DNA of 64,000 nt from Trichaptum fuscoviolaceum. Lineage: Eukaryota > Basidiomycota > Agaricomycetes > Hymenochaetales > Trichaptaceae. Positions 12,401 through 60,400 of the stretch are shown one piece after another (position 1 is the stretch's first letter; every line of letters begins with the position of its first letter). Both the position numbers and the translations under genes were made by a program. The stretch covers positions 806,001 through 870,000 of the forward strand of contig CAJSYZ010000005.1 in the NCBI GenBank assembly GCA_910574455.1, in the 5' to 3' direction. The notes beneath the pieces were generated by a model that saw only the letters and a program-made list of their open reading frames with translations, did not search any database and was not told the origin of the DNA.

Positions 12401-13864
12401 TGAGGGTTACTGTCTCTCCTTCATCCTCCCAAGGACTAAAGTTTGCATCCTCTTGCACCGAGGCGGGGAGCCTAAATTTTCCTTGTGTCAGCCAGGCTCA
12501 CAACTTGAAACAAAGATAAGGATGTGAGCATTATAAGTGAAGAAGCTGCAATGTTCGGGTTCATGATGATCTTGAAGAAGTGTGGCACGGCGGTGACCCG
12601 CCGGGCCGCCACGGTCGCTGCCACTGGCAGTGTCACTGGCGCACGCGTGGCACGCTCAAACTGCCACTGGCAGTGGCGGGCGCATTCAAGCTATCAGTAC
12701 TAGTACTACTAGTAGTAGTAGTAAGTAGTACTACAATGATAAGCTTCAAGTAGCTGAGTTTAAATCAAGTTCACACTTACTATCAACTTGAATTTGTTTG
12801 AATTTGAAACTCATCTTTCGTACTATGATGCGAACGGTTGAGTAGTACGACTTCAAACTCACAAGTCAATATCTTCTACTATCTTCCTTGCGATCTCAGG
12901 ATTTCTGCCCTCTCCGCCGAAGAAAGTGGATCCATCTGTGTAGCGAAGTGCCCTGACAGGTCGCTTTGTCTTATCGTTCCGTTTCGACGTATTGGGCGAG
13001 TCTATCATGTCTGTATCCTCACCAGAAAGACTGCTGTCCTGTCCTGCAAGCGTACTATGATAGCCAGTGCCTCCTATGATACGACTTGAAGCCTTTGCGC
13101 CCTGCACACAAGTACGGAAAGGAAGTGCACCTCTGGTGTCCTTTTTCCTCGCCTTTTTTGCGCGCTCTCTATCTGGTCCATCGGAATTGGCTGCATCATA
13201 ACGTGAGTCAATATGTTCATCTTTCAAAACCTAAAGTCGTAAAGGTAATGCAACTTACGAACATAAAAGTTTGCATTGCCTTCAGCTTCACAAAAGCTGT
13301 CTTTTTCCTCGTTCGTTGAACCTGCAATGCCAATATCTGGTAACTCGACTGTCGCTGTCTTGAAGATAAGGACTCACTAGCTTCAGGAGTGTCTTTCGGT
13401 TTTTTTAGCCCTCGTTTGTCAGTGCCAGCCAGCTTAGGTGCAGTTGAGCCCATCTGGGTGCGAATGTCAAGAGCCTTCGACAAATTCTTCTCAAGCTCCA
13501 TCGTCTCCAGTATTGCTGTTTCCTGTTGCTCTGCTGCAGCTCTCTTTTTGCGTACCTTCTCAGATGCCTCTTGTTCTTTTGCTGCCCGTTTCTGTTCCGC
13601 ATCAAGTTTTCTCTTCTCTCTCGCATCCGCGGCTTGTTGAGCCGCAGCTTCGCGCAGAGCTGCCCGTTCTTCCTTCTGTTTTTCCTTCTCCTCCTTTTCC
13701 CTCAATGCCTCACCACGCTTTGAGGCCTGCTCTTCTCTCCTTCTCTCCTTCTCTTCTTTCTCCCTCAATACCTCCTCTTTCGTTCGACGTGTTCTGAGTT
13801 TATTGACTATGGCTCCCGGGTGCTGATTGCTATTCTTAGCCCGCGTTTGTCTTCGAGTTGACAT
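9494..13864 (-). CDS. Many-exon coiled-coil/acidic-tail accessory protein, element 1
   Basis: The start is set at 13864 (MSTRRQTRAK) because element 2 has the same start at 61677 with the same AAACACTGCACAA leader. Exon 1 (to about 13380) encodes a highly charged Lys/Glu/Arg/Ala coiled coil of about 150 residues. Exons near 13227-12859 (..LPFRT.., SLSGEDTDMIDSP), 12470-12325 (SPWEDEGET, QTAHLVDSD) and about 12115-12020 match element 2. Several tiny exons and introns follow. The last exons, about 10560-10400 (KAEQSISSFVGNE) and 10144-9494, give a Trp-containing segment and then a very acidic Asp/Glu/Lys tail. It is divergent from the transposase. The function is unknown, perhaps DNA or partner binding. 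Exon joins in 10600-12850 are not fully resolved, and the stop could lie further left (open frame to 9321). Confidence 0.6.
12480..12858. repeat. Palindromic-motif cluster within an intron of the coiled-coil gene
   Basis: Contains GCCACTGGCAGTGGC (12663-12677, 7+G+7 palindrome), CACTGGCAGTG-like copies and TACTACTAGTAGTA runs. The matching intron of element 2 (62688-62940) lacks this cluster. Confidence 0.6.
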
Positions 13865-14341
13865 TCTTGTGCAGTGTTTCAAGTCGAGGCACGCTGACAG
13901 GTGCTATGAGTTTCGATGGTGAATCGAGTTGGCAAAGGTGCAAGTTGTAGTTGAAGTTGGAGATGAGGGCGCCTATTCAAGGAAAATTTACGCCCACTTG
14001 CACTTGCTGGCACTGGCAGTGCCAGTGATTGGCAGCCTTCAAGTTAGGCTGACTCGGAATGAGCCTGACTCAGACTCGGACTTGGACACTCGGATACTCA
14101 GGCTAGCTCTATTACTAGTACTATCACAGTGCTACTGGTACTAGTACTACTCACTGGCACTTGCAGGCTCACTGGCAGGCTGGCGGCGGTGCCACTGAGT
14201 CACTGACAGCCTGAGGCTGTGGCTACTCAGGCTACCGGTACTACTACTAGTAGTACTACTAACTTCAAGTTGTTACTACGCGGGCGTCACCGCTGAGCGT
14301 GCCATTCAACTTTAAATTCAGCGTTCAATTTACTGGAACTA
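13865..14341. promoter_or_regulatory. Bidirectional promoter region, element 1
   Basis: Lies between the divergent coiled-coil gene and the transposase. GAAAATTTACGCCC at 13982-13995 is the complement of GGGCGTAAATTTTC at 61569-61582 in the element 2 promoter, with the same orientation and a similar distance (about 100-120 nt) to the coiled-coil start. The rest is filled with motif palindromes, for example CACTGGCAGTG at 14011-14021 and ACAGCCTGAGGCTGT at 14206-14220. Confidence 0.55.
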
Positions 14342-17300
14342 ATGCCGGTAACTCGGCGAAGGCCCAAACCCGTTCATCTTACAGATATCTTCCCCCCGAC
14401 TATTCGATGCACCTTCTCCTTCTGCAGCAGGAGGTTCAAGAATCAATCCGCAAGGACAAGACATGAATATTCAGCTCACCCGTCATCATTTGCAACAAGA
14501 CCTGCTGCTTGTGGTTACGACTTGGATTCCTCACCCAAGCGACCCGCACGACCTTCGACACCTCAAGCTCTTCCCGGCTCTCCTGAACTTCCAACAGACT
14601 TGGAGGGCCATCATGAAGATGAAAGTGGCTGCAACTCTTCAAGTTACGACTACGACATTTCTATACTCACACAGGATATCTCGATGCTTAGCATAGGCCG
14701 AGACGAGCTGCTTCAAGATTTAGACGGTCCTGATTGCCTGTCCCATGCTGACACTGGAGATGACGAACTTGAAGACCAAGACCTATCTTCTGCTGATCTG
14801 GACTCCGACATTGGAGATTATGAAGAGAACAATGATAACTTAAAGGTGTATCACAGATATTTAAATGGTGCGCGCTAAGTATGATGTCCCCAGTTTACTT
14901 TAGCATTCTGACACCAAATATCGTGCAGCCACTCCATGCGATGAAGAAGGGAACTTCTTAGAAAAGGAAGAACCGCCCGTTTCACGGAACGAACCTGCGT
15001 CAAATGACTGGTTTCCCTATTCGTGCCGAGCAGATTTCGAGCTCGCAGATTTTCTCTATCGCGAAGAGCAAATGTCTGCTGGCAACATAACAAAGCTTCT
15101 CGGAATTATGAAGGCTTATCAACTAATTCAGTCCACGGAGAACGCAAAATCTATTAGATATCCCGAATTGGACGCGACAGATCCCAATGATGACTCAAGT
15201 CTGGATACAGCTGGTGCACTGCTCGATGGAGATGCACAAAATTTGTACAAGATCATTGACACTACAAAAGTCGGTGATGTATCTTGGAAATCCTTCAGTA
15301 ACTTCTACACTAACGACAATGGCCAAAAAGCGACAAACGAGAACATCGAGTCATGGAAGAGGAAAGAATATGATGTATGGTATCGGGATCCTTTGGAAGT
15401 AATCCGAAATTTGGTGGATAACCCGGCTTTAGAAGGCGAATTTGACTTTGTCCCGTTTCGTGAATTTCAGACAAAGGAGGACACCAATAATATCAATGAC
15501 AAAGAACGAGTTTTCAGAAATTACATGTCCGGGAATTTTGCTTGGGAACAGGCTGTAAGTCATGACTCATTAACTCGCACAGATACTTATTATCCTTGAC
15601 TTAGAACAAGATCTACGCAGAAGATAAAGCAGTCCATGGATCTATGTTCGTCCCGGTCATTTTAGGGAGCGATAAGACAACGGTTTCTGTTGGAACTGGC
15701 AATAATGAATACTATCCTTTGTATCTCTCGATTGGGAATGTATCAAACAAGGCCCGGCGGTCCCAGAAACTGAATACAGTCCAGCTCATAGCATTTCTGG
15801 CAATACCAAAGAGTATGTGTTAATAGTGATCTATTCAATTGACTTCTGATGCTTTGCAGCTGAGCGGCAATACGAAAAGTCAGATGACTTCCGGCACTTT
15901 CGACATCAGATCTTTCATTCGTCTATATCGAGGATCTTAATCTCGCTGAAATCCGCAATGATCATGAACACTCAGAAAACCATTCTCCGGTGCCCTGATG
16001 GTCACTTGCGTAGGTCGGTTTTCGGACTCGGCTCATATATAGCCGATTATCCGGAACAGGTCAGCCTTTGCGCCATATGTACTGGATGGTGCTGCAAGTA
16101 AGTACTACCGCCCTCAGGCTTTCCTGAAATCAAGCTCTGTGGTGATGACTTACTTTCGACATTATAGATGCACAGCGCCTCACAAGGACCTCGATAATCC
16201 GGAATTTGTATCAATTCCTCGAACAAAAGAGCTGCACGAACGATTGATAGAACAGGTAGACGCCAACAACATGAATAAAGCAACAATTCGGAAAGAGTAC
16301 GGATTCCACCAGGACATTGTGGTACGTGCTTCAAATTATTCATTGGATGCGTATATTGCAACTGATACGTTGCTCCGTAGCCTTTCACCAATGACATTCC
16401 ACGCGCAGATATATGCGATCTCATATCTCCGGACCTGCTGCACCAAATCATCAAAGGCGTGTTCAAGGATCATCTTGTCGAGTGGATATGCCAGAGCTTG
16501 ACCACGTCAGAGCTGGATATTGTGGATAAAAGGTGATTTTTTTCGCAAGTTGTTTAATGTAAATACCATTGCTAACATCCGCGTAGAATCAGAGTTGCTG
16601 CTCCTTTTCCTGGACTTCGCAGATTCCCCGAAGGCCGAGGCTTCAAGCAATGGACAGGCAATGATTCTAAGGCACTTATGAAAGTATGTGACCTTTTTAT
16701 CTTGTTCGAGGCAGTGGTTTGCTGATATTTGATGCAATTTGCTTAGGTGTATCTTCCGGCTATCGTGGGCATTGCACACGATGATATGATTCGCACATTA
16801 ATGTGCATTTCTAGACTTCTGTTACCTTGTGCGTCGGTACACGATTACAGCCTCAACTCTTGATCAAATCAAAGCCTCTTTGGATCACTTTCACCGTTAT
16901 CGGCAAATATTCATAGCTAAGGGCATCCGGGATAACTTTTCACTACCACGACAGCATGCTATGGTCCATTATCCAACATTGATCCCTCTGTTTGCTGCAC
17001 CGAGCGGGCTGTGTTCATCGATTACAGAGAATAAACATATTTATGCGGTCAAAGAAACGTGGCGACGCTCGAACAGAAATGATCCCTTGGGCCAGATGAT
17101 CACAGCAAACCAACGACTCAGCAAACTTATTGCATCGAGGTCAGACTTCAAACGGCGTGGAATGCTAGACGATACGCTATCCGAGGCTACGTGGAAAGTT
17201 TTGCGAGATGTTCTGCGGAAGAATATGTCAGAGCCGGAGGAGGATGATGCTGAGAGGATCCCGAATCAGAGGGAGCAGTTGCAGTGTATTGGTGTGGCAG

Positions 17301-18422
17301 GAGCAGCCAATGATACAGATGATTTCTTCGATGGCACTGTGGGTAATCAAGGGCACAACGAAATTGCTGACCTGGATGATTTCAGCACTTCATCAGTGGA
17401 AGGACTGCAAAGTAGTGTTGTTCTTCATGATGTGGAAAATACAGAACATCGGTTTTGCTTAGGTGGTAGAAGTGATCCTTCGAGCTTGATGTTAATGGCT
17501 TCGAAACAACGTCAGTAACACGAGCTTCAAATTGTGGCGCTGGATATCTGACTTATTCGTTGCTATCCTTACAGAGTCCAGTAAGCTGTACCCCAAACAG
17601 CTCAACGCTCTTGCGGCGATAAAAGGCCATCCGGAACTCCGACAGCTCCGACGACTCATCAAAATATACTTATTCTGCAAGTACGAAAGGTGCAACTTGA
17701 ACGAATTAGGATACTATGACCTCGGAAGCGCTTCTGAAAGCCTGATAGCCGAACAACAGTTTGCACTGGACATGGGCAATGACATTGCCATCTTCCATTC
17801 AGCTACCGCGTATTTCGCCTACCGCGGCGAATCAATTCCTATAGAGCAAGCAATGAGGGAGGTGATCAGGTCCAATCCCTCTTGGCGCGGAAAACCACGA
17901 CGTGATGTCGTTCTTGTCCAAGTTAGTTCTCGCAAAAAGGGGTTTGCAGGGATGCGAATTGCTCGGGTTATGCTTCTTTTCTCCTTCACCGCCAATGGAG
18001 AACGTCAGGAATGCGCCCTTGTCCAGTTTTTCAAGAACGTTGGAGACTCACCTGACAGAAAAACAAGAATGTGGATAGTCGAGCCAGAGTATGAGTCAGA
18101 GACCTCTACCGCGTGCCAGCGTAGTACTATTGGAAGTTGCCGTCAACCGCTGACTCGGACTCGCCGGAGTGACCTGAATGACACCTCCGACTCGGAGTCA
18201 GGCTACCCCCGTCACGGTGACTCAAAAACTCCAAAGTTATCCGTGATAGCTCTAGGGAGTATCTTCCGTTTAGCTCACCTCCTTGGGGTTCCAGAGGGTG
18301 ATGAATGTCCTCCGAAGTCATTGACACCTGAGGAGTCCCTGGACTTTTACAATAGATTCTATGTTAACCGATTTGCTGACATGCACATGCATGAAACATT
18401 GTACGAAAGTAGGCAACAATAA
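14342..18422 (+). pseudogene. Plavaka-type transposase, element 1, frameshifted in exon 8
   Basis: Nine exons: 14342-14867, 14929-15554, 15605-15812, 15860-16097, 16168-16321, 16381-16532, 16587-16683, 16747-17510, 17575-18422. Internal exons 2-7 match element 2 in length exactly. The N-terminus has a C2H2 finger (C-x4-C...H-x4-H, within IRCTFSFCSRRF). Core motifs are RADFELADFLYREEQMSAG, VILGSDKT (candidate catalytic Asp), RCPDGHLRRSVFGLGSYIA, RFPEGRGFKQWTGNDSKAL and LPRQHAMVHYP, all typical of Plavaka transposases. An extra T near 16802 shifts the frame relative to element 2; translation then stops near 16863, so about the last third is lost. The frame is open again downstream. Exon 9 contains motif palindromes (18189-18199, 18211-18221). 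It presumably acts in the nucleus, if active. Confidence 0.85.
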
Positions 18423-19192
18423 AGATAAACCCTCATTTAGCTCACAAAGTACCTTGAAACTTATGAAGTAAGGATATAACATTTAAATGTTCAGTGACGG
18501 ATTATGGTACTAGCTATACTAGAATTGTAGTGTTACTAGTCGGTGCATCTTAGACTTCAAGTTCAAGTTGGATCATGTCGGATGCCACTGTCAGTGGCAG
18601 TGGTCAAAATTTCCCACTGCTGCAGTGCACTGGCAGCCTCAGGCTGAGTACTACTACTACTGGTACTAGTACTACTAGTATGAACATAGAAAACTTCAAG
18701 TAAAAAGTGTACAATAACATGGAACTTGCCAACAACTGGAAATGAACCAATAACCTGCCTCAGGCTGCTACTACTACTAGTACTACTTCAAGTTCTAATT
18801 TAACCATCTTGAAGTTGAAGTTCAAGTTGAACACAGACTACTAGTAGTACTAGTCACGGTAGTACTATCAACTTGAAGCATATGCTATGAATAAATAAAT
18901 AATTTTTTTGCAGTATATAGTAGTAATCAAGAAAACGATGTCACATAGTTGCTACTAGTACTAACTACCAATAGTGCAGCATAGTGCGAGAGGAGCTTTA
19001 AGTTAAACTTGAAAAGGGAGTAAGCACTGGCATAGAATGAGTAGTACTAGTACAATCCGAGTCCTTGACTTTTGTCATAAACATAGTAAAACGAAATAAA
19101 AATTTAACACGGCCACAACTTAAACTTGAATCGCGCGCTGGTGAACCCTAGAACACTTCGTGTCGGGGAATGGTCCAATATGCAACCGCCAG
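18423..19192. repeat. Gene-free convergent spacer rich in palindromic motifs
   Basis: Contains CACTG/CAGTG, TACTACTAGTA, TTCAAGTT and CAGCCTCAGGCTG repeats between the convergent ends of the transposase and the following gene. No coding potential is seen. Confidence 0.6.
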
Positions 19193-21017
19193 TTACATCG
19201 CCGAGCTCATATTGACATCCGAGTCGGTGTCCGTGATGGGATCCAATTTGTCGAGAAGAGCAAATAGGATTCCATAATCTGTTAAATAAAATGGACCATA
19301 ATTACGAAGTAAATCGTTGACTGTCTTCAGGAGTAAAGAGTCAAAAATTTGCTCTGCCGGAATAAGGGCATGATCGATGTGTTCCATATCTTCGTGGAGA
19401 AATTCGGCGGCCCTGTCGAGTCTTTCCTTGTCTATATCTTTGCGATCAGCATCGTCAAATTGCCTAATGGCTCGAGTCACTTCGATAATGCCCAGCCTAG
19501 CAAAGTCCATCTCCCTGGAGAAGCGCTGCATTGCACCATCATTCATGAGCAACAGATCCAGAAGCGAATCATCACAGAGGATGATTAAACATTTCCTGAT
19601 CCAGTTGAACCTGCGCAGAACAACCGAATAATTTCCGTATTCGCGCTGGATTTGTCGATTATTCTCCAATGAGGACGTTCCACCATCAGCCGAGTCGACG
19701 CCAAGAATATCCATTGACTTCTGAATGAGTCGATGAAAGTCAGCTAGAGCAGCTTCTCCACCGGCACGTTCAAGTTCACGTTTCCATCGACGCCGAGCCT
19801 CTCGTGCTGTTCCGGATTGAAAGACAGTCGGAGTCGCCTGAGTCGCAGAACAATTGACTTCTGCTTCTGAGAGTTGACCAACGGGCGACTTTGGCAATTG
19901 TTCCGCACGGCATTTGTCTAGGAAGACGATCCAATCCTTGCACTCGTTATATGACCAAATAAGTAGGGGGAGAAAGAACTTGAGCGCAAGCCTTGGGTTT
20001 CGGGGCCTGCTTGTAGAGCCTTTAAGATTCACGCCCACGACTGGGTAAAGTGCTTCAATTGAGCAGAGAGTTCACGACGAACATTTTCCTCGAGCTTTGT
20101 GCCTTTGATGTCGATCCTTATGGCAGAAAAGACAGATTTTGTCTGTATCAATCGATTGCCGGCCTCCTCATCCTCAAATTTACGTTGCCAACGCACGATT
20201 GCATGGTGTGAATGATATCGGGCGACTAAGCAAGACAAGAAATTATCCCAGATGACGTCCCCAGTGAAAACATTGATGAGTTTCCCTGACGGGAAAAAGC
20301 CGGGAAGAACAGATATGAACGCCGTGGCGACAGCAAGTCTTGATTCCTCCACACGCTTGCGGATAAGCAGCTCAAGTGGCTCCTCGGGCTATAGCGCATT
20401 ACCATAAGAACAAGCGGTTAGAGACGTGCATTCAAGCTTTTGATTTAATTTGCAGCTTACCGTATAACGCATCAGGATAGCTAGTTCTTCACCTAGCTTG
20501 AAGATCATGTCCGTGTACTGGTATGTACTGATCCGAAACTGGTCTAGCATCACAGCCGTCTTCCTCTGCAGAGCCTGTGCTTCCCTAACCCGGTTACTGA
20601 TATACTGATTTGACGTATCAAAGTACCTCCCCAGCCGATCAGCCAGAACAAGTGTTTCCTTGAAATCGTTCGACGAAAACCCGAAGCGATTTGCATGCTC
20701 TAGCTTGGACTCTAAGCTTTTGGTGATTGACTGGACCACCGTGCTATCGATATATGCTCCCGAGCGATAACCAAAGGGTAGGTCCTCTGACAAGTCATTG
20801 AAGATAAGCCAAACCACACACTGAAATATAGATAATATGTGGTCCTACCGAACTTAACCTCTACAGGATTTGTATACACTTCGTATTCGCTCTCGTCTTC
20901 GATGATCGCGGACTTTGAGCTGTGAGTGTTGAGACCAAAGCTGGATTCTGAACCGTCCTCGTCCTCGTCTGTGTCCAAGCAAGAGCTTGGAGTATCCCCG
21001 AGATCAGAACTTGACAT
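19193..21017 (-). CDS. Unrecognised accessory family protein 1, element 1 (possible frameshift)
   Basis: Exon 1 is 21017-20859 (acidic, Ser-rich), exon 2 is 20820-20461 and exon 3 starts at 20388; introns keep frame. The exon 3 frame stops at 20029, but an overlapping frame from 20038 continues to 19193. The two together give about 570 residues, so there is either a 1-nt indel near 20030 or two overlapping genes. The second part has KFFLPLLIWSYNECKDWIV, which resembles FRFFLPYFQLHYNALYDFIV of the element 2 gene at 54541 and FRFFLVRFYLIFEFHRRLYV of the gene at 22966. Another shared segment is CLIILCDDSLLDLLLMN / LQIVLNEDLFYTVMGN. It is convergent with the transposase, as is its positional counterpart in element 2. 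The function is unknown and it is probably alpha-helical. Confidence 0.55.
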
Positions 21018-22965
21018 TTTGGAGATTTGATAGTGACTGAACGAAGAGCCTGAGCTACTTCAAGTTGGCAGTGCAGTGAGTACTACTACTAGGAATACTA
21101 GTAGTAGTAGTAGTATGCCTGAGAGGAAAGTAATGGCAAGGGTTATTCAAACGGTGAGTGAAGTTGGAATGAAGGTCAAGTGTCGCCACCGTGGCATGCC
21201 ACCGGCAGCCTGAGTAGTACTAGTAGTAGTAGGCTATTACTAGTACTAGTAGTAGCCTGAGTGAGCCACTGGCAGTGAGTGCCACTGGCAGTGAGCCTGA
21301 GGGGCAACTTCAAGTTATTACTAATACTACAGTAGTAGAAAACGGGCCGAGCTTCGCCGGCAAGTCCCTTACTCCGAGTCCGAGTCCCCCATTTGTCAAC
21401 TTGAAGACGTTCGCACGGGAGGCAGATTTCCCTGAGCGTTATCACGCAATTCCGGAACGCAGTGCCCTTCCTCCCAGAACTAGTAGCCTCACTGCCACTG
21501 GCACTGCAGTGGCAGCCTCAGGCTCAGGCTGAGCCTGAGTCACGGTATCACTGCCAGTGGCGCCACTGGATGAAGGATTTAGGACACCCGAAATTGAAAC
21601 CCATAAGACCCCGCTTGGCACTCAGGCTGGCAAGCATTTAGGGAGGTTGAAGCCACCCGTCCACCGCCGGCCTTGAGCAGAAGTTCTGCCGGTCCATGGA
21701 GACCCGCGGTATAACTTACCTTTGAACTTGAAGGTAAGGTATCAGGGTGTACTTATGATATCTTACCTGATACTACTACTAGTACGGTAAGCAAGGCAGG
21801 CATTTAGGACGACTGTCCTAGACACGGACCATCTGGCAGACCCTTCCCCTCTGCTAGATCCTGGAAATTTAGGGCCCGGGCAAGACGGAGAGTTTGGCTC
21901 CGAGCCGTGCCGTTTAGTACTAGTACTACATACTACTTGTAGGACGAAAAAGCCGTTCTAAATCCTTAGTACGGGAAGCATAGCCTGAGTATGGTGGCTT
22001 CCGACTCAGCCTGAGCCGCAGGCTGCGTCACTACTCTAGTGGATGCCTTCCCGTAAGAATTTAGGACGGCGGAGGCTGTCCTAAATCTTTGAAACTCCGT
22101 CAGGTACAGGTTTAGGACAGCCATCCTAAACCGTAAGCAACATCTAGGACGGGTCCTAAATTCCTTTCCGGTTGCCACGGTGAGGTCTGCCGGATTATTT
22201 TCATAGATAAAATTGCTTAAAATGGAAGCGGGTGCGTCACATAATCTTCACTTCTACTAAATATGGTATGTGAGAACGCTGCTGTAATGTTTAGAGCCCT
22301 TCCTTGATCTCAGTAATTTAGGACGACCGACGTCGACCGGAAAGTTGGCTCCGTTCCCGGATAATATTCGGAAGAGGATTTAGGATAAGAATCGTCGTCC
22401 TAAATCCTTACGGGAAGGCATCCAGTACCATCATAATGATGATCACGGTGCCTCCGCATCATCATGCCGTGAAACACAAACAAGTATAGTACTACTATAG
22501 TACTATCCGGCGAGGACTCGGACTCCGAAGCGAACTGCGGCGGCCGAGCTGTCAAGTTGCTGAGATCATCAACTTCAAATTCGACTAGTAAGTACTAGTA
22601 GTAGTAGTAGTAGTACTAGTAGTTACGGTAGTAGTACTACTCGCAGCGGGTGCACTCATGCTCAGCTGCTGTGGCACTGCCAGTGCCAGTGAGGCTGGGA
22701 AGTCCTACTACTAGTAGTAGTAGTATCACTGGCATAGTAGTACTAGCCTGAGTACTTAAATTTAAATATAGTACTACTCTTCACGGCACTCCGTCAGCCT
22801 GAGTCACGGTGTGGCCTGCTGGCAGCGGTAGTATCCGACTTCCATCAACTTCTTCAAGTTCACGTTCCGACGGTGAATAGCTTTTAGTTGCCACTGGCAG
22901 CGGACCCCATCATGATCCCCCCCACATCATCTTGAAGCCAGCAACTCAACGACTATCCCTTCAGA
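21018..22965. repeat. 1.9-kb spacer between divergent accessory genes, dense in palindromes
   Basis: No gene is seen. Examples of motifs are CACTGGCAGTG at 21267-21277 and 21283-21293, and CTACTACTAGTAGTAG at 22705-22720. It includes a separate cluster of ATTTAGGAC/GTCCTAAAT repeats at 21573-22409. It probably contains the promoters of both accessory genes. Confidence 0.6.
21573..22409. repeat. Cluster bounded by AAGGATTTAGGAC inverted repeats
   Basis: AAGGATTTAGGAC at 21573-21585 and its exact complement at 22397-22409 bound about 840 bp. Inside are further ATTTAGGAC and GTCCTAAAT copies in hairpin-like pairs (about 21810, 21940, 22063, 22107, 22150). It could be a nested non-autonomous insertion; no coding frame is present. 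Confidence 0.45.
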
Positions 22966-25900: not shown

Positions 25901-25981
25901 CGTGAGCAAACACGGAAGCCTCCTAGTTTCCAAGGAAGGATTTGTGAATCCTTCCAATCCTCATTACAAAGAGCCATTTGA
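22966..25981 (+). CDS. Unrecognised accessory family protein 2 (906 aa), element 1
   Basis: Six exons keep frame: 22966-23065, 23126-23267, 23327-23491, 23553-23654, 23714-24395, 24452-25981. Residues about 75-175 are low-complexity (Ser/Gly/Glu), encoded partly by the palindromic motifs. Residues about 200-390 form a coiled coil with a 10-residue tandem repeat (LDAERKADQT, 30-bp repeat at 24249-24308). The C-terminal 500 residues are helical and share FRFFLVRF-type and other segments with the genes at 19193-21017 and 54541-56988. No known domain is recognised. It lies on the transposase strand and has no counterpart at this position and orientation in element 2, suggesting a duplicate within element 1 or loss from element 2. 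Confidence 0.65.
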
Positions 25982-27040
25982 GTTTCGGATTACCGGCGAA
26001 GGCGTATCTCGACTCAAATCTTTGACGCCCTTGTCCTAGTATACTACTACCCGTAGTATATGGTCACGGTATAAACTTCGTCGAGTCTATCTGTCTTCCT
26101 GATAAACAATGATGTTTCGACTTTGTCTTTCCGATAATAGTAAACAATGATGTGTCGTCTTTTTCTTGAATAAAACGCCTATGTCTTGCTTGATTGTGTG
26201 ATGATATGACCTTCAACTTGAAGATATTTTGTAAATACTGATCACCACATCTCATACGATGCAGCGCATCCCCAGGCTGCCAGGAGTATCTACTAGCCTA
26301 CTAGTACTCGTACTAGTAGTACCCGAAGGCTTGTTTGTGTTGTGCTTCTACTTTAACATTCAAGTTTCGGGGACATACACCGTGTTAAAGTTCCTCTGGC
26401 TCAAGTTGCCTTCAACATCACTACTTCATCCCTTCAATGTTCCGGGGAGCAAGATGAAGAGGACATGGACGGCAAATTCTTCTGCCAGTGATGTCTGAGT
26501 CGGAGTCACTCAGGCTCACTGCCACTCAGGCTGCCAGTGCCAGTGGCACGCCGGTCACTGGCACGGTGACTTCAAGTTCAACTTGAAGTTGTGGCACTCA
26601 CTACTAAGGCTGGCAGGCTGGCACTCAGTTGTCGACTTCAACTTCAAGTTGTTGCTACCACAGGCATAGTACTTGGTGGACATTGAAGATGCTCAACACT
26701 GGCCGTAGTCACCATGCCATACAACCAGGCTCGTTAACAGAGAACTTCCTCAGGTTGTCTTACGTCCTGGTGTATTTTCTGTTTAACACTACGTTCTGCT
26801 CTCCAGGATTACATCTTGGCCCGCACCCTCCACTATTGATCGCATCCTACGCAATTATCGGAAAAAGGAACAGCCGCTGCCGTAGGATGTACAGTTGAGT
26901 TGACACGGGATCATCTTACACACTGGCACTGGCAGCCTAGGGCAGGAACCACCTTACAGACACACTTTAACCAATCATCCAAGATGAGTAAGCTCTATAA
27001 TATCGTTGATGGCCTCAAGTGACTTTTCAGTAGCGAACTG
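25982..27040. repeat. Spacer with palindromic motifs at the left edge of the shared module
   Basis: Motifs include CAACTTGAAGTTG at 26579-26591 and CACTGCCAGTG / GTCACTGGCACGGTGAC-like sequence at 26520-26570. A short open frame (26259-26498) has no supporting features. Confidence 0.5.
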
Positions 27041-27308
27041 ACGTAGTCATGGCCTCCTCCTCAACTACCACTGTATCCCAACGCCCAAGTCACCGCAGAT
27101 TCTCTTCTTCACTTTTCTACCAATTTTCAACATCGAATTCCTCCTGCACGTCCCGATTCTCTCCCAACACCATGCGGGACCTTGTACAACTCTGATAACC
27201 TCTTTCTTCCGCCGCGCATCTGCCGACTCGCGCTTTGCCTGTCTCGGCACGCTCAAATTGTTCTATCGGTTTCAACGCCTCGCGCAGCTCGCGTAAAACG
27301 TCTGCGCC

Positions 27309-27815: not shown

Positions 27816-27941
27816 ACCGGCCCTCACAGGCACGAGGAGAGGATGTATGCGTGCAGTAATCAGTGAGCGAAAGCTACTACTGTACTTCTCGAGTAAGTTG
27901 TTCTTTTAATTTTTGAATCATAATACTCACGGGCTTCTTCA

Positions 27942-28205: not shown

Positions 28206-28408
28206 GTTCCTCTTTTCCTCGACCATCTCAAGCTCAACAATAAGCGGCCACAGGACTCGCGCTGAGCAGTCAGTCGGGACGAGTCTCTATCCCTACCGTC
28301 TACTCTCACTTCAGGGATCCCTGCTCAATCGACATCTAATCCTAAGTTCGCCTGGCCTGAGCGGCGTAAAGAGCCCAAAAACATGGGAAGGATGCTGGAG
28401 AGGGAAGG

Positions 28409-37935: not shown

Positions 37936-37959
37936 ACAACAACTACTGGCGTTTTTTTA

Positions 37960-49690: not shown

Positions 49691-49960
49691 CACTGGACTA
49701 TATAATAAAATAATATAATGCATCAGAGCAGACAAATCTGCCACTGACATAGTACTACTATTGGAGGAAAAATAGTTGCTGCACCGCTTGGGTAAAATAT
49801 GTAGCTTGTGATTACTTAACGCCCAGAGGTGTTCGGGTATCGCCAGCAAAAAGCTGGCCCGTCCGGGCGTTATATTGAATTGTCTTGAAAACTTTGAAGT
49901 GTCCTGAAAAAGCACTAATAGTGGTGTTGAAAACTATTTAATCCATTGGGTTGCTCACAG
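49691..49960. other. Joint between captured fragment and shared module
   Basis: Gene-free. It holds a single CACTGACATAGTACTACTA-like motif stretch at 49741-49760. Confidence 0.4.
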
Positions 49961-50167
49961 CAGACAGACACCATTGGCGACATCTTCCAAACCACTTTGA
50001 TACCTCAGACTACGGTGATCATTCGGGAAAAAAAAGCAATTCAATAATAAATTTTAATCATGAATCTCCTGGCAACTTTGAAAGACAAGAGCATGTGCAC
50101 AACAATTTACTCGATAACTCAAGCACATTTGGTCAAACCTGCTACTGGTGGGCCTCAGCCTACTAGA

Positions 50168-51209
50168 TCAAGCCTCGAAGTTCTTGATGTACTTATCCGG
50201 TAAGGGTGGGTGGCTTTGGCTCAGGGCCAAAGCTACAGCAAACGTGCTGTGAACATCAATGGCAGCATCTAGTATTCCAGTACAGCAGATCATGCAAGTG
50301 AGAACTTGAAGATGGTTGATCTTGAGCAACAAAATGATAACTTACATTGTATTTGTGCCGCTGATAGCTCGTTAGCTGCCCAGTCACTCATCGTGACCTC
50401 ACTACTCTTCTTGACGTTCAGCCTCAATACTTCTCCCACTATTTTTTCGAGCTTGACAGTCGGAGTCGGATGCTGGAACCAGAGACGAGGGTTTAAGAGC
50501 AGTTGGGACCAGGTCGGGTTTTTGGGCCAGACTTCCGGGTAGACAACGCGCGCCCAATCTGTCAGATCGACACAGGAGCGCACAGAGGTGCAAAACTTGC
50601 GCTTTATACGCACTGCGTCACCTGCCATTTCTTCTGGTTGGCCACCTCGCAGGAGAAAAGATAAGTTATTCATACCGTTGATTCCAGCTGAAACTTTCAT
50701 GACTGTACCATCCCCAAGGAGTTGCGCCAACGTAGGAGGAAGGTCAGTAAGAGTATGCGTCCTGACCAGATAAACCTGGTTTTGAACTGCGAGTTGGATG
50801 AGGTCTACGCGATGATTGGACCCTTTTCCGCCACTTGCCCACTCGATGTCGATCGAGACAAATCTCCTAGCTGGTACCTGTGGCAAAGATGCATATATTG
50901 CAGTCATTGCGTTGTCCACATCCAAGCCCGTGCAACACTGTATCGGAACTATATTATGGGGCCTATATTCATCTAATTCGGAGAGAGGTGTTGGTGGTAC
51001 CCCGAGGAAATCAAGAAACGTTTGCAGTTTCTTGTGTATCTAGCAACAAGTCAGTGTACAGATCTTGATATGAATGAAACAAGTACCTTCGTTTGAGCCC
51101 TTGCTGTCCAGCGTTGAACGAGCTGAAAGCGGAGGACGGTGCGGAGGTGCAGGCGTGCGTAATCAAGGGAGAGGAGGATGAGAAGGATAGTACGAAGATT
51201 TGAGAACAT
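50168..51209 (-). CDS. DEDD-type 3'-5' exonuclease-like protein (305 aa), element 2
   Basis: Exons 51209-51087, 51039-50346 and 50268-50168 have lengths identical to element 1 (123, 694, 101 nt), and splicing again creates the YAAID motif. It keeps FVSIDIEWASGG and motif III. Motif II again lacks Asp (SAGINGMNNLSFLL). About 14 substitutions in roughly 200 residues separate the copies, several conservative, with no stop or frameshift. It is on the same strand as the element 2 transposase, as in element 1. Confidence 0.8.
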
Positions 51210-51525
51210 GATTCACGGTGGAATGGCTGGATGATGATCTTGGGGACGATACCCGCTCCCACTTCACACTTATACAAAGTAGTTGAAGTCAGTTTTCTGA
51301 TTTCCCATTCTTCTAGAAAGAGAGAGGGAGCTATTAGTGCTTTGTACTATGACTTGGATAAACCGCAAGTTGAACTGATAGGAGATAACAAATGATTTCT
51401 TCCGGATGACTTGATTATAAGGCTTCTTTTCATTTTAAGCACAAACGAACAAGAAAATGAGTCATGTTAACTCCGAAGAAGTCGGGAGGATACAACCCAC
51501 TGCACAAGAAGCTGCTCCATCAGCT

Positions 51526-51933
51526 CTAGAAGGATTTCGAAGAAAGCCACGAGTAACTCACCATACAACCAGTCATCCCTGTACTCAACCCGAAACTTGA
51601 ACTAGAACCGTGCCAAAATGGGAAATGGGCCAACTTGAACTTGAATGCATCCCAACCCGCTTCGGAAGGAGTAATTTGCATGAAGGCGCGTTTCTCGTCC
51701 TCGGAGCTGAGGGAATCGCGCTGTCGGCCGACGATCAACTCATACTGCACATTGAAACCGAGCGTTCTCCATTTAGGCGGCAATGGTGGCGGGGCAGAGG
51801 TGTTTGGCAAGGAATGGGGACACGACAACTTGGATGATGTCGAAAATGCAGTTATAATCATTCCCTTCGCTGCATTTGCAAATTGAGTTGTGAGTCGCGC
51901 TTTGTCGACGTCTGGTGGACTTTGTGCATGCAA
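51526..51933 (-). other. Unrecognised conserved open frame, element 2 copy
   Basis: Counterpart of 28409-28852. It keeps RTLGFNVQYELIVGRQRDSL and ITPSEAGWDAFKFKL. The upstream half is in a different frame from the element 1 copy, suggesting decay. Confidence 0.3.
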
Positions 51934-52239
51934 GCGGAATATTGGGACGCATCAAACTGCCCGGTGATACATAGCCCCGTATATACGAATCCGACCGCGC
52001 AACTTCGCAACTTTTCTCTCCTCACTGTTGTATGTGTTGAGAGAGCGTAGCTGTTCAGCATCCTTCCCATGTTTTTGGGCTCTTTCGCCGCTCAGGCCAG
52101 GCGAACTTAGGCTTAGATGTCGATTGAGCAGGGATCCCTGAGGTGAGTGTAGACGGTAGGGATAGAGACTCGTCCCCTGACTGCTCAGTGCAAGTCCTGT
52201 GGCCGCTTATTGTTGAGCTGGAGATGGTCGAGGAAAAGA

Positions 52240-52505
52240 GGAACGATGAAACGAGAAGAAGCTGACGCGGCCATCGTTCCTTCCGGTGACAAGAAAGTCG
52301 GAGTCGTACTGAAAAGTTGTCACTGACGAGTCGGGGATGAATGAATGTGAAGAGAATCATACCCATTTGCAGATTCCATACGCGAACGGATGTGTCCAAT
52401 CCCCCACGCCCAAGAAAAAAGACAATACAATTTTCGGCGTAAATCTTATGCAGATTTTCTCGGAGAACGTATGGACATTCCCCGTGCCGATGCTCCAAAG
52501 CTGAA
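52240..52505 (-). pseudogene. WD40-repeat fragment, element 2 copy
   Basis: Reads HRHGECPYVLRENLHKIYAE and GGLDTSVRVWNLQMG in separate frames, as in element 1 (27942-28205), with small deletions between them. Confidence 0.5.
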
Positions 52506-53235
52506 GAAGCCTGTGAGTATTATGATTCAAAAAATAAAAGAACAACTTACTCGAGAAGTACAGTAGAAGCTTTCGCTCACTGATTACCGCACGCACATCC
52601 CCTCCTGGTGCCTGTGAGCGCCGGTTCAGTAACTTGCCTCTTTGCACATTCCAAACGTCGGTGATGCGTCTCGCGATTCAAAACCTGGGAGGAACAGACC
52701 TCGGATGCAAGTGCAGCAACCAGTTTTAACGTCCTGCACTCATCAGCCACCACTGATGATGAGCTCTCTGGCGTAGCTCTATCCATTGGAGAAGGTTCAC
52801 TCATGATATATGGTGACGGATGTAATCACTCTACCATCACCAATTGCTGAAGGAATTCGTGTTGTCAACTGTGGAGGTAGACGTGTGCGCATGGCGCCCC
52901 AGTGTGCTCGCCATTGCTTTAGTCGGTAAGGGGATACGCGTCGGGATAAATTTGCGAGAGAAGCCTGGGGCAAGACTTGGGGCAACCACCTGCTGTGGGC
53001 GCAGTAAATTGCGTAGACGGTAGTGGTTTCGTGTCCTCTGCAAAAGCGGTCGAACTCCTACCCCCTGGGTTTCCATACGAGCCGTGCCGAACGAGCCGAA
53101 ACGCGTCGACCCACAGGGAGCTACAAAAGTATCGTGCAGACGTACGTGAGCTGCGCAAGGCGTTGAAACCGATAGAACAATTTGAGCATGCTGAGACAGG
53201 CAGAGTGAGTGAGTCGGCAGATGCGCGGCGGAAGA

Positions 53236-54540
53236 AAAAAGAGAGTATACACAGCAAACTCAACAGTGAAACGAAAGGCCTACTACCTCTTGTAGTAGTA
53301 ACCTCAGTTCTAGTTGGTGGCATTCACGAGTCGGGGCGTAGAGCAGTAGTAACTTGAAGCCTGTGAGACTCCGAGTCCAAGTCGGAGGAGGCTCGGCTCA
53401 GCTTCAACTTGAAGTTCTTGAATTGATGACGAGTCAACTTCAAGTTGAACTCTGACCCGACTCCGACTCAGCCTGAGGCTCCAACTTGAACTTGAACTTG
53501 AACTTGAACTTGAACTTGAAGTACCGCCGTCACGCCGGCCGGACAGCCTGAGTGCCACTCACCAGTGCTGGGCCAGCCTTCAAGCTCACTCAGGTCCGGT
53601 GTCCGGCCTTGAACTCAGGCTCGGACTCGGACTCGGACTCGGACTCGAACTCGGACTCGAACCGTATACTACTACTAGTAGTAGTAGTAAAGTTGAGATT
53701 GTGACAACTTGCCAGTCTGAGTGGACAGAACTGGAAGCTTAAGCTGCTTAAGACTGGATCATTCAGCTGCCAGTGGCTAGTAGTAGTACGGTACCCTGCC
53801 AGTGAGTACTAATAGTAGGTAGTAGTAGTCGCCAAACATCACTGGCATGCCAGTGGCATTCAAGTTCAATTTCAAGTTGAAGTTGTGGCGCGCGCAACTT
53901 GAATGCCAACTCCGAGTCGGATCATTCAGCCTGCCAGTGAGTTGCAGTGATCATGATGTCCGACTCCGACGGCCCGGGAGTCACGGCAGTAGTACGTGGC
54001 AGCCTGAGGTACTAGTAGCGTTTCCACTCCGAGCCGTCGGACTTTCAACTAGTTCAAGTTCAAGTTCCGAATTTAGTAGCCTGAGTACCCCATGCCCACA
54101 ACTTGACGTTGCACCCCAGTGAGCCTGAGCGACGTGTCGTGCCCGAGTCTAGTACTTAGGCTTGTTCTTCAACTTCACACATCAACAGCTTGAAGCCCTC
54201 TCATCCTGAAGTCCACCTGAATTTCATCCTACTTGTAGACTGCTGGCACTGGTGGTGAGTGAGCTTTCAGCCTTCTAGATCTACTTCATCCACTAACTGA
54301 GATCTTCAAGCTTGTACTTCTAGTACTACTAGTAGTAGCTCTACCGATTAGAACCACTCAGGCTACAGCCTCAGGCCGAGCGTGAGCCTGATCCGCTTCA
54401 AGTTCGCTACTACTACTTAGTACTACTACTCGCTACCGAACTTCCGCGTGAGGTAGTACCACTACTACCACTACCACTACTATTACTAATATTCGGCATC
54501 ACTACTCACGGCAAGCCTGAGACTCCTCCAGTTTGCAGTT
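53236..54540. repeat. 1.3-kb palindromic-motif array, element 2
   Basis: Contains AACTTGAAGTT at 53406-53416, AGCCTGAGGCT at 53470-53480, (CTTGAA)n at 53485-53520, (GGACTC)n at 53620-53660 and many TACTACTAGTAGTA-type copies (53670-54500). No gene is seen. It lies between the shared module and the accessory gene and probably includes that gene's promoter. Confidence 0.65.
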
Positions 54541-56988
54541 ATGCCATCATACAATAGTAACAAGCGTCAGCGCAGCCCGAAAAGTGAAGGTGAGCCTGAG
54601 TTTGAGTCGGACCCCTCGCCGGTTCTGACAATTATTTCGAAGAATCCGAATCCGAGTCGGAGCGCGTTTCTGTCGAGCGTCGTTCCAGTGGTAATCGGAA
54701 TGCCCATGAACGTCACTATTCACCGCCGTATTCACAGAAACACTCAGGCTGGCACAGGAAGGACAGAAGTAATAAACGGAGGAGGAACGATCATGAGTAC
54801 AGTCCCACGAGCACTCCGGGGCCGAGCCGTACTAGTACCAGCGCCAGTGGGCAATACCGAGACAGGACCAGCTCTTCATACCCTGTGGAGGCGTACCGCG
54901 ACTATAGAGGCAGCGCACAACACGTACACAACAGTTATAACCCGCGTGAAGAACTTGGAACATACTCTGGCGCCAATGGCTATCGAGGGGAGACTCAGAG
55001 GCGGGACGTCGCGCAGAACGATCCGACTATTCCAAATAAGAGGGTTCTTCAAATTAGCGTCCTCAACCCTTCAACCCCTTCACCTACTCCTCGGCCTCGA
55101 TTCACTGGCAGCCGCAGCCCACGTAGTACTCCAAATGACATGTTGTCGGATTTGCGTTCCTAAAGTGTCTGCTGCCCAAAAATCTATGCGCAGTTCGCCG
55201 GCAATTGGAGTATCGGATTCTCAAGTTGATAACGTCGATCCAAGCGAAGGTAACGCATTCTTCCTCCCTTTTCTATCATAGTCTGTGTCCAAAGCTAACC
55301 CTTCACTGGCACAGAAAACATCGAATCGGCTCACTTGATCCCAAAGAGTTCATCTCATTCGCCAACCCCCTCTGAGCTCGCGCCCTTATACGATCCAAAT
55401 GCAGGAGTCAAGCAGCTGCAGGACTTGACCAAGAAGCTGAAAAAATGGGAGGAATTTCATAAAAAGGATTCCAATGAATTGAGGGCTCGAGTTACGGATT
55501 TGGAGAAGAGGTTTGCCGTGATGGAAGGAGTCCAGAAGAACGTTGCAGATACTTTAAATGACGTATCAGCGTCAATCGATCTCGTGAAAGACAAAATGTC
55601 TGGGGTAAGTAACATGATCACATTTCTAAAAAGAGTGACATCTAAAAACATACCCTTGTTAGTCACGGCAAGCAGGCGACGCTGTAAGAATGAGGAAGCT
55701 TACAGATAATCTACTGACCTACCTCCGGGAAGGCTGTGCAATTGTCCTTGATTTCACTGGCGAGGAGATACTGAGAACCAAGTACTCACATAATTCTGTT
55801 CCCGGCACTCTCAATTACTTTGCCGCCAACTTTAAGACATTGTCTGTCGTCATGCATGAACACTTTAAACGATACCTTCGAGTTTACTTGCCACCTCCGA
55901 CTTCGAGTCGTTCCCCGGAACCGGAAGAAAAATCCTACACTGTGGTAAAAGACCCACCACATGTCAAATTTATCCTGAATCGTGAAGCTCGGCAACGTCA
56001 AAACCTGCCATTCGACGCATCTCAGGTGAACAAATTAACTGCTTTCCGGTTCTTTCTACCATATTTCCAGCTCCATTACAACGCACTTTACGATTTCATC
56101 GTAGAAATTGACAAACTCCTCCAACAATCGGCAGCTCTTCAGTTTAATTTCAAGCCCAATGCACAGGAAAGGCTCTACTCAATGACGGTGGACAACCCAG
56201 GAACTTTCGTAACGCCTGCGGTCCAACTGTTTGGGGGATTGCCTCAGGTACGCCCTCAGCCTGACGTTCACAAGCATCTAGTCTTTAAAGACTCGGAGAT
56301 TGGACGGAGACTGGCGCTCACACTTTGGGACAAGGTCCGCGCACTCCATAACGGTGAAGAAGTGCCGAACTTTGTTATGGCCGACGACCTTCGCATCAAA
56401 TCTGTTGAAGACATGAAAAGGACCTTGAAGGCCTTGGGGCCTAATCCCTCTTTCGCTGATTTTTTGAAGAAACTCGACTTACGAGATGTCCGTCGTTTGG
56501 AAAGGATTCAGCGGGAGTTGATACATGGTTTTAAAGTCGTCAAGAGGTGGTTGCAAATAGTCCTCAACGAGGATCTTTTCTACACAGTCATGGGTAACCA
56601 GCTATCCCGTTCAATCCGCCACGTAATGAACGATATCATACATGCTCGGGAGGAGAGGACTGACGCAGTCCTTGACTCTATTGAGAAGTTCACGGCTTAC
56701 GTAGACTTGAAGGATACCCGCAATAGTACCCGCTATGATAAATTTCAAGACCAACTGATAGCAACGGTGCTCGAGATATGTAACGATATACCACCCGGAG
56801 CGAGGGTTACGGCCGGGGCTTCGACTGCCAGGACGAGTTTATCACCGGGAGAGATCTACAACTCACAGTATCGCGATTATCTAAGCGAAGTGATGAACCG
56901 AAAGCCTGAGGATATTTGCACACCGATGTATCTTCCTAATGGCAAGCAGGAAGAAAGGACTTCTAATAGAAACAGTCACCACAACTAG
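54541..56988 (+). CDS. Unrecognised accessory family protein, element 2
   Basis: The N-terminal exons (from 54541, MPSYNSNKRQRSPKSE) lead, by a probable short intron (about 54590-54645), into an Arg/Ser/Tyr-rich disordered stretch to about 55160. A frame change there is unresolved (an intron or an indel). The next pieces end at about 55248 and resume at 55316 with ENIESAHLIPKSS, then a coiled coil (LTKKLKKWEEFHKKDSNELR). A phase-0 intron (GTAAGT at 55602) leads to 55662-56988, open to the stop. The C-terminal domain has FRFFLPYFQLHYNALYDFIV and LQIVLNEDLFYTVMGN, shared with both element 1 family genes. Position and orientation match the gene at 19193-21017 (convergent with the transposase). 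The function is unknown. Confidence 0.6.
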
Positions 56989-57437
56989 CTGTTGCGGGGC
57001 AGAGCTGGACTCGGAGGTGAAGCTATGACTTGGAGTTCCCATGTAATCTTTGCGCTATGCTAGTGTCTACAGTTTTTCCTTGTGTCGCTTTGTGATTTGC
57101 TGATAATAACATTGCCTTGACCAACCTGAATGAAATACTACTGCCATGATATCATTGCCAGTGTACCACTAGTAGTATACTGTACAACCTGAAAGCAAGC
57201 CAAGAACACCATAACTTGAAGTTGAAGTTAAAACAGTGTCATGGTACTACTAGTCTTTAAGAGCCAATGCTGCAATGCCAGTGTAGTACTACGTTACATA
57301 CGTAGTACTAAGGTCTGTTTCGTCTAGTACATCCTTTTGTTTCATTGCCATATCCGAGTCCTCACTCGTAAGTTTCAATATAGTACATTCAAGGTTGTGT
57401 ATGCTAATTGAAAAGCTTTACTTCAAGTTAGTAGTAA
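56989..57437. repeat. Convergent spacer with palindromic motifs, element 2
   Basis: CCACTAGTAGTATACTG, AACTTGAAGTTGAAGTT and TACTACTAGT copies lie between the stops of the accessory gene and the transposase; it probably holds both 3' ends. Confidence 0.55.
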
Positions 57438-60400
57438 TCATTGTCTAGTTTCGTACAATGTTTCGTGCATGTGCATGTCAGCAAATCTGTTAACGTAGAA
57501 TCTATCGTAAAAGTCCAGGGATTCCTCAGGTGTCAATGACTTCGGAGGAGATTCGTCACCCTTCGGGACCCCAAGGAGGTGAGCTAAACGAAAGATGTCC
57601 CCTATATCTATCACAGACAGCTTCGGAGCCTTGCAGTCACGGTGATAGTGATGTCTGCCACTGTCATTCACTCCGGGACAGCGTCCGACACAGGCGGTAG
57701 AGCTCTCCAACTCATATGCTGGTTCAACTATCCACATTCTTGTTTTCGGGTCGGGCGATTCTCCAACACGCTTGAAAAACTGGACGAGAGCGCATTCCTG
57801 ACGTTCCACTTTAACGGTGAATGAGAAAAAAAGTATAACCCTGGCAACTCTCATTCCTGCGAACCCCTGTTTGCGGGAACCACCTCGGACAAGAACTGCA
57901 TCTCGTCGAGGTTTTCCGCGCCAAGAGGGACTGGACCTGATCACCTCCCTCATTGCTTGTTCTATAGGGATCGATTCACCACGATACGCAAAGAACGCGG
58001 TGGCTGAATGGAAAATTGAAAAGTCATTGCTAATATCCAGTTTATAGTGTTCAAATCCGTTGTAGTTTAATTTGGCTTGCCTGCTACTACTAGTAGTAGC
58101 AGAACACTTTGAGTTGGTGTTACAACTTTCGTACTTGTTGAATAAGTGTTTCTTGATGAGTTGTCGGAGTTGTCGAAGTTCTGGATAGCCTTCTATTGCC
58201 GCGAGAGCATCGAGCTGTTTAGGGTACACTTTACTGGACTCTGCAAGGATAACAATAAACAAGTTGGATTTGCAGCACCAAAAGGATGTTTCACTAACGT
58301 TTTTTTGAAGCCATTAACGTAAAGCTCAAAGGGTCATTCTTGCCACCCAAGCGGAGCTGGCGTTCAGCATTTCCTACGCCATGAACCGCACCACGCTGTG
58401 GCTCATCTATTAAACTTTCGGAATCGTCCAAATCTGCAATTTCGTTGAGCTCTTGAATACCCACAATGGCATCGAAGAAGTCATCTGTATCATCAGCTTC
58501 ACCTACTACTAATACGTCACGTTGTTGCATCTGCTCTCCCCCACTGGCATCAGGGTCCCTCTCAGCGTCATCCGACTCTGACTCTGACGACATATTCTTG
58601 CGCAAAACATCTCGCAAAGCTCTCCACGAAGCCTCGGCTAACGTATCATCCAGCATTCCACGCCTTTTGAAGTCTGCCCTTGATGCAATAAGTTTACTGA
58701 GTCGTTGGTTTGCTGTGATCATCTGACCCAAGGGATCATTTTTGTTTGAGCGTCGCCATGTTTCCTTGACCGCGTAAATGTGCTTATTCTCTGTGATCGA
58801 TGAACATAGTCCACTCGGTGCAGCGAACAGAGGAATCATTGTAGGATAGTGGACCATGGCATGCTGTCGTGGTAGTGAGAAGTTGTCCCGGATACCCATA
58901 GCTATGAATATTTGCCGATATTGATGAAAGCAATCCAGAGAGGCTTTGATCTGATCAAGTGTTGAGGCTGTAATCGTGTACCGACGCACAAGATAACAGA
59001 AGTCGAGAAATGCACTCAATGCATGAATTATATCATCCTGCACAATGCCCACAATAGCCGGAAGATACACCTAAGCGGTTTACATCGACTACTATCAGCA
59101 AACGACCGCCTCGAACAAGAAGGAAAAATCACATACTTTCATAAGTGCCTTTGAATCATTGCCTGTCCATTGCTTGAAGCCTCGGCCTTCGGGGAATCTA
59201 CGTAGTCCAGGAAAAGGAGCAGCGACTCTGATTCTACGCGGAGGTCAGCGATAGTATTCATATTATACAAATTGTTTGAGAATGGCACCTTTTATCCACA
59301 ATATCCAGCTCTGTTGTGGTCAAGCTCTGGCATATCCACTCGACAAGATGATCCTTGAAAACACCTTTGATGATTTGGTGCAATAGGTCCGGAGAAATGA
59401 GATCGCATATATCTGCGCGCGGAAAGTCATTGGTGAAGGGCTACGGGAAAACATAGTTCTTAGAAGCGCATCCAATGGAGAATTTGGAGCACATACCACG
59501 ATATCTTGGTGGAACCCATACTCTTTGCGAATTGTTGCTCTGGTTAAGTTGTTGTCATTTACCTGCTCTATCAATCGTTCGTGTAGCTCTTTTGTTCGAG
59601 GATTTGATGCAAACTCCGGATTATCTAGGTCCTTGTGGGGAGCTGTGCATCTATATAGCCACCGTAAGCCATTTCCTCAGACTCCTATGCGATTTTGGAA
59701 AGGATGGTACTTACTTGCAGCACCATCCAGTGCATATTGCGCATAGACTCACCTGTTCCGGATAATCGGCTATATACGAGCCGAGTCCGAGAACCGACCT
59801 ACGCAAGTGACCATCAGGGCACCGGAGAATGGTCTGTTCATTGTTTATGGACATGGCGGTCTTCAGTGAACTCAAGATTCTCGATATAGATGAATGAAAA
59901 ATTTGATGTCTAAAGCGACGGAAGTCATCTGACTTTTCGTACTGTCGCTCAGCTGCAAAAAAGCGTCAAAACACAATTGAATGGCTCAGTTTTTGACACA
60001 CACTCTTTGGTATTGCTAAAAATGCTACAAGCTGGACTGTATTCAACTTTTGGGACCGCCGGGCCTTGTTTGATACATTTCCTATTGAGAGATATAACGG
60101 ATAATATTCGTTGTTGCCAGTTCCAACGGAAACTGTTGTCTTGTCGCTCCCCAAGATCACCGGAACGAACATAGATCCATGGACTGCTTTATCTTCGGCG
60201 TAGATCTTATTCTAAGTCAAGGATAATCAGTATGTTTCCTGCGAGTTCATGAGTCATGACCTACAGCCTGTTCCCAAGCAAAATTTCCGGACATGTAATT
60301 TCTGAACACTCGTTCTTTGTCATTGATGTCATCAGATTCCTCCTTTGGCTGATATTCACGAAATGGGACATAGTCGAATTCGCCTTCTAAAGCCGTATTA

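Follow-up and report, generated by a model that had tools for sequence, protein, structure and literature searches.

Octamers of the form dCd'Gd in a Trichaptum fuscoviolaceum contig are probably excision scars of Plavaka transposons

Introduction

When the hAT transposon Ac/Ds leaves a donor site, the scar carries P-nucleotides from opened flank hairpins and microhomology takes part in the joining; these scars are mixed, with two major and 26 other kinds described (PMC5873905). RAG makes a nick and then a hairpin on the flank (PMC11844651), and for mPing, a Tourist element, the two copies of the duplication guide a precise repair (PMC4561436). Plavaka elements, which are little studied, encode transposases that have C(2)C and H(3-4)H motifs in common with RAG1 and Transib, and their PlavakaB group is defined by ends reading 5'-CATCA..TGATG-3' and by duplications of 2 or 3 bp (PMC12730594). 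Here we analyse 64,000 nucleotides of the fungus Trichaptum fuscoviolaceum (contig CAJSYZ010000005.1, positions 806,001 to 870,000; hereafter the window), which hold a complete PlavakaB-type element, E1, and part of a second Plavaka element, E2. Both are rich in an octamer d-C-d'-G-d, in which d is a dinucleotide, d' is its reverse complement, and C and G are fixed. We interpret these octamers, which we call words and which are densest in Plavaka transposons, as probable excision scars, or footprints, of these elements, and give this reading of the sequence a probability of about 0.82.

E1 resembles PlavakaB in all three defining respects, having a Pfam Plavaka domain, CATCA..TGATG ends and a 2-bp duplication. 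The words resemble Ac/Ds scars in being palindromic additions at the donor site (PMC5873905); they differ in that the Ac/Ds scars are mixed and involve longer duplications, whereas here one +6 form dominates, centred on the element's own end base. RAG, Transib and the P-nucleotides of V(D)J joining differ in that the Plavaka nick would lie one base inside the element, leaving C/G behind, and in that the joints here are uniform, and mPing differs in its precise repair, as here each repair would add 6 bp. The main text of the published PlavakaB description contains neither of the words "footprint" and "hairpin" (PMC12730594); "footprint" is likewise absent from the main texts of PMC9674265 and PMC8290104. 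None of the papers listed in our literature search was on such a scar for Plavaka, which is weak evidence of absence.

An octamer underlies a family of palindromes

The first-pass annotation of the window had described 11-bp palindromes with 5-bp arms around a central C or G, with at least six unrelated half-sites, filling spacers of two elements and rare or only partial in host DNA. All six palindromes are present in the window, TACTAGTAGTA in 21 places, CACTGGCAGTG in 8, AACTTGAAGTT in 7, AGCCTGAGGCT in 4, GACTCGGAGTC in 3 and GTCACGGTGAC in a single one, with both strands counted. Their arms do differ (AA-C-TT, GA-C-TC, CA-C-TG, AG-C-CT, GT-C-AC and TA-C-TA), but every one has the form d-S-d', where S is C or G. 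Palindromes with the other S at the centre (TGCCACTGGCA 9, TTCAACTTGAA 6, TCCGACTCGGA 4, CTCAGCCTGAG 4) are about equal in number to those first listed. The true unit is the octamer dCd'Gd, whose forms are AACTTGAA, GACTCGGA, CACTGGCA, AGCCTGAG, TACTAGTA and GTCACGGT; nesting of such words yields both kinds of palindrome, and the window holds 210 octamers in total.

Enrichment over shuffled sequence, on which the annotated family depended, is found. The element stretches 12480-26980 and 53250-58110 (19.4 kb) contain 114 palindromes of the 5+1+5 type against 20.0 ± 4.3 in 50 dinucleotide shuffles, roughly a six-fold excess, the largest shuffle value being 30, while the remaining 44.6 kb of the window contain 39 against 47.9 ± 7.2 and so show no excess. 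In these element stretches we counted 169 matches to the 11-mer grammar dSd'SdSd', compared with 0.7 in shuffles; with A/T spacers the count falls to 2, and with reversed d in place of d' to 1. The spacer pair C..G also exceeds each of the other three C/G pairs for d = AA (42 vs 11-14), AG (32 vs 3-5), CA (35 vs 10-16) and GA (19 vs 9 each). For d = TA the four pairs are almost even in count, which is what runs of a self-complementary dinucleotide would be expected to give.

The octamer is likewise abundant beyond the window, all comparisons being made within one genome. Plavaka DNA totalling 83.6 kb has 382 copies where shuffles give 19.1 ± 4.5, with the A/T-spacer controls (21 and 20) and the reversed-d control (23) at background. 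In 154 kb of other DNA there are 103 against 41; there, dGd'Cd, dCd'Cd and the A/T forms remain at 46-52 vs 36-41, and dCdGd is at 66 vs 40. The octamer excess in other DNA speaks against restriction to the elements. It is a lower bound, since five stretches, some with Plavaka homology and some with a high word count, were excluded from both sets. In a 200-kb random sample, 7-mer counts are merely mildly up, with no rise for GTCACGG/ACCGTGA. The effect is present solely for 2-base d; lengths of 1, 3, 4 or 5 bases gave none and were dropped, and we attribute five occurrences with a 5-base d in Plavaka DNA to nested runs.

Words arise as 6-bp gains between copies

Between close copies, words show up as exact 6-bp insertions that turn d into dCd'Gd. 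The transposase gene is present in several copies (pairwise identity 82-92%), and in a five-copy alignment several words are exact 6-bp gains limited to a single copy or a pair of copies, as in GATGAC-GCTGAG against GATGACGCTCAGGCTGAG. Where at least 27 of the 28 flank bases agree, pairwise indels number 17, 4, 5, 0, 0, 10, 1, 1 and 2 for lengths 1 to 9. Eight of the ten 6-bp indels in this close-flank set are the change d to dCd'Gd; the ninth (CACCTCAGGCTTCGG vs CACCTCCGG) is this change plus one substitution, and the tenth, GCTCAA, is of a different kind. Gains of one form and one size support the generating mechanism that the first-pass annotation had put forward.

Exact removal of 6 bp from octamers of the form d NNNN d, leaving a sequence found elsewhere, gave 13 non-local events (matches within 100 bases left out), and 7 of these are words, which make up 502 of the ~22,000 octamers of this form. 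The other six are a GA-type change in two copies, two events within runs of TA, one within a GC-rich tandem repeat in an excluded stretch and one between two AACTTG runs. Before local matches were excluded, the yield was 17/502 for words, 3/1161 for dCNNGd without d', 7/428 for dCd'Cd or dGd'Gd, 0/315 for A/T spacers and 117/21059 for the rest.

Two sites could be followed genome-wide in two states. The first reads TGCCAGTG in 60 places, TG in 32 and a variant in 1 (n=93); the second has the longer form in 26 (24 exact, 2 variants) and the short form in 62 (n=88). Individual words in the window, all on the forward strand, also differ between copies: ACCGTGAC (4142..4149) is matched by bare AC in two other window copies, TGCCAGTG (41145..41152) by bare TG in another, and the double word AACTTGAACTTGAA (51632..51645) by an inverted copy near 28761 that is one unit shorter. 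The word TACTAGTA at 61559..61566 is absent from two other stretches, and copies aligned to the sole GTCACGGTGAC (18211..18221) read TATCACCGTGAC, TACCACCGTGAC or TATCAGCGCAAC.

Two Plavaka elements rich in words

E1 spans 8890..34229 on the forward strand (25,340 bp) and is delimited by a homology break, inverted ends and a Plavaka domain. Homology between the repeat copies 1-8889 and 37001-45826 ends at 8889 and picks up again at 34230. The insert begins CATCAGGGAATC and finishes TTCCCTGATG, with inverted ends CATCAGGGAA..; its left end at 8890..8918 (+) reads CATCAGGGAATCTTCTTTTTCACTTAAGG, and its right end at 34201..34229 (-) reads CATCAGGGAAACTACTTTTTGCTTAAGG as reverse complement. A TG target duplication flanks it (8888..8889 and 34230..34231), and the paralogous repeat copy is empty there, with one TG (45825..45826). 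Six empty copies of this junction lie on contig C5, between 755,977 and 851,836, which looks like a local segmental array. The two repeat copies are 97.5% identical. Another candidate end, CATCAGTGTCACGGT at 9296, was rejected as internal, since the DNA on its left is common to the 40 copies compared; it has 57 occurrences in the genome.

A Pfam search of 20 open reading frames found the Plavaka domain (PF18759) above cut-off in two, at 15072-15599 in E1 (E 2.5e-24) and at 60247-60747 (-) in E2 (E 4.7e-23). One exonuclease match fell below cut-off, as did matches to Stomagen, YdiH and ZW10_C2, which were taken as chance. E2 lies on the reverse strand and runs past the window end (49721..64000); its start at 49721 is probable, from the position of the terminus CATCAGAGC.. 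in the sequence. Both elements thus reach beyond the bounds first drawn around them.

Plavaka insertions across the genome

The 20-bp end of E1 occurs in 661 places at ≤2 mismatches, against 4 for a reversed control pattern. Among the 100 of these places that were listed there are six further end pairs 25,336-25,371 bases apart, a spacing close to that of E1 which suggests recent spread. Two more empty sites elsewhere confirm the element length, and matching 2-bp duplications stand at 10/10 end pairs read. E1-type ends at eight places have almost identical flanks (..GAGTTCTCGCAC..), which looks like multiplication of a single composite insertion.

We classified duplications at 63 independent insertion sites (62 left of 70 once near-identical flanks and the right-hand ends of the 10 pairs were set aside, plus E1): CA/TG 18, TA 17, AA/TT 13, AG/CT 5, GA/TC 4, AT 3, CG 2, GC 1, and AC/GT and CC/GG 0. 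Word frequencies describe these classes better than base composition does (log-likelihood -134.7 vs -146.8). The classes correspond roughly to the arms first listed for the palindromes, and go some way to explaining which dinucleotides are missing. An octamer lies ≤60 bp from the element at 18/62 ends, compared with 129/3320 random 60-mers (p 4e-11) and 100/659 60-mers from the two window elements. Such placement of present insertions in word-rich DNA would explain why words are so dense in Plavaka spacers, with no need for selection on the words themselves.

The closest relatives of the transposase piece are 74% identical to it. Named relatives come from the mushroom-forming fungi Stygiomarasmius, Sphagnurus, Mycena and Hydnomerulius, at 54-62% identity over about half of the piece (43-62% aligned); relatives in viral contigs were not confirmed among 25 stretches.

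A proposed excision mechanism

If an element has C..G ends and a 2-bp duplication, its scar is expected to read d C .. G d, and the words match this, with d' between. We envision that the transposase makes a nick at each 5' end, one base into the element, so that the flanks would retain the terminal C on the left and G on the right. The free end would attack the opposite strand and close the flank as a hairpin reading d-C-d', and the d' in the middle of the word would be the mark of this hairpin. Opening two bases past the loop would leave a left end that finishes in d' and a right end that begins with d'; these could anneal over d' and be sealed as dCd'Gd, with a net product of +6 bp that keeps the reading frame. 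Because both flanks carry the same d, the ends would always match whatever d is, which would explain the single dominant product. Further rounds of insertion and excision at d or d' within an existing scar would give (dCd'G)n runs and the 11-bp palindromes, and with d = TA, its own complement, the scar would resemble TAC/TAG repeats.

The palindromic additions of hairpin-type scars, the P-nucleotide footprint, are present here as dCd'Gd in 6-bp gains. The mixture of products seen with Ac/Ds-like scars is not: one form dominates, and the others are at or slightly over background, some +5, +7 and +8 forms being slightly over it and a +4 form, dropped, lying at it. If the proposal is correct, sequence alone would reveal where Plavaka cuts, one base within the element end, as well as a RAG-like flank hairpin and a joining rule set by the 2-bp duplication. 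What look like microsatellites and palindromes could then be counted as excisions and read as a history of jumps; a prediction would follow for every genome with PlavakaB, and the frame-keeping insertions would offer evolutionary material. More tentatively, and we would not bet on it, the +6 scars may be programmed to be frame-neutral and, by adding the preferred targets d and d' to DNA that Plavaka already favours, invite further insertions, so that spacers grow as a self-made landing zone and jump record.

Several observations weigh against the excision-scar interpretation. We found no site represented as empty, as occupied and as scarred: three occupied sites have solely empty counterparts (6, 40 and 12 places), one further occupied site has no scar, its three weak matches being unrelated, and two scar sites have no occupied copy. 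With looser flanks, the change d to dCd'Gd makes up just 9/17 and 13/26 of the 6-bp indels, and before local matches were excluded dGd'Cd scored 15/194 in the removal test. Plavaka DNA also has an excess of other C/G orders (dGd'Cd 126, dCd'Cd 142 and dCdGd 97, vs ~20), most of which may be nested runs. Alternative scar forms are slightly up as well (dd'Gd 102 vs 75; dCd'd'Gd 5 vs 1.1), as is one +7 form in other DNA (22 vs 9.5). The match between duplication and word classes is moderate in Plavaka DNA (Spearman 0.58, p 0.077) and lower in other DNA (0.32, p 0.36); relative to the duplications there are too many AG and AC words and too few isolated TA words, and present insertions have a C preference beside them that words lack. 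A single product would also be unusual by analogy, known hairpin scars being mixed.

Alternative explanations

The words could instead be scars of another transposon with C..G ends and a 2-bp duplication, such as a family of short non-autonomous elements that the Plavaka enzyme mobilizes. We consider this unlikely. Scars do far exceed full elements (210 octamers vs two elements in the window), and the dinucleotide match of Plavaka is imperfect; however, scars within a high-copy element get multiplied along with it, no close inverted pair of a short element appears among the 100 end places listed of the 661, and the ends, duplication length and insertion preference of Plavaka all fit.

It is considerably less likely that the words are selected binding sites of element-encoded proteins, with several related specificities in one symmetric geometry, an idea also raised in the first-pass annotation. 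Their density in spacers and the presence of identical words in several Plavaka subfamilies would suit it. Yet the words are gained 6 bp in one step, and a joint change of d and d' is beyond one protein, so that about six would be needed; binding sites leave both facts unexplained and are not required once words are taken as excision scars. Words are found within the transposase gene and in other DNA too, and they are distributed over the entire length of the element, not gathered at its ends. In CACTA elements, subterminal repeats that bind the transposase are concentrated close to the ends, whereas word counts per kb in E1 are highest in internal spacers (16 and 24), with 2 in the first kb and 1 in the last.

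Least likely is microsatellite slippage of hexamer and TAG/TAC repeats, which the first-pass annotation had rightly doubted: it suits the head-to-tail arrays (AACTTG 6.3 copies, CTCGGA 6.7 copies) and the two of eight close-flank gains that, judged by eye, copy an existing unit, and it may lengthen existing runs, but it is contradicted by the other six, of which four start from a bare dinucleotide and two put letters other than neighbour copies into a word or TA run, and it accounts for neither the fixed C and G nor d'.

Distribution of words and other features of the elements

In the window, words form clusters of 6 octamers at 12502..12792, 14 at 14011..14271, 20 at 18556..19225, 27 at 21047..22015, 13 at 22515..22998 and 14 at 26063..26650. 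Seven more, of the (AACTTG)n type, lie at 30510..30579; the largest cluster, 40 octamers with (AACTTG)n and (CTCGGA)n arrays, at 53351..54837; and 8 octamers at 56903..57643.

The E1 stretch 31700-33900 resembles, by eye, pieces of a captured histidine kinase gene; the sole open reading frame tried there, 32379-32864, had no Pfam match. A 3.3-kb stretch is shared by E1 (27203-30456) and E2 (49957-53237) in inverted orientation at 92% identity, and is also present in three further stretches of the genome at 65-69%. Its open reading frame 29488-30123 is the one with the below cut-off match, to a 3'-5' exonuclease (21.3 vs 23.6 bits); from the sequence, an element-borne nuclease might bear on the opening or trimming of ends. 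Finally, E1 contains an inverted repeat at 22037-22427 with 51-nt arms, 82% complementary, which is not of the dCd'Gd kind and lies in a stretch with several copies of ATTTAGGAC/GTCCTAAAT.

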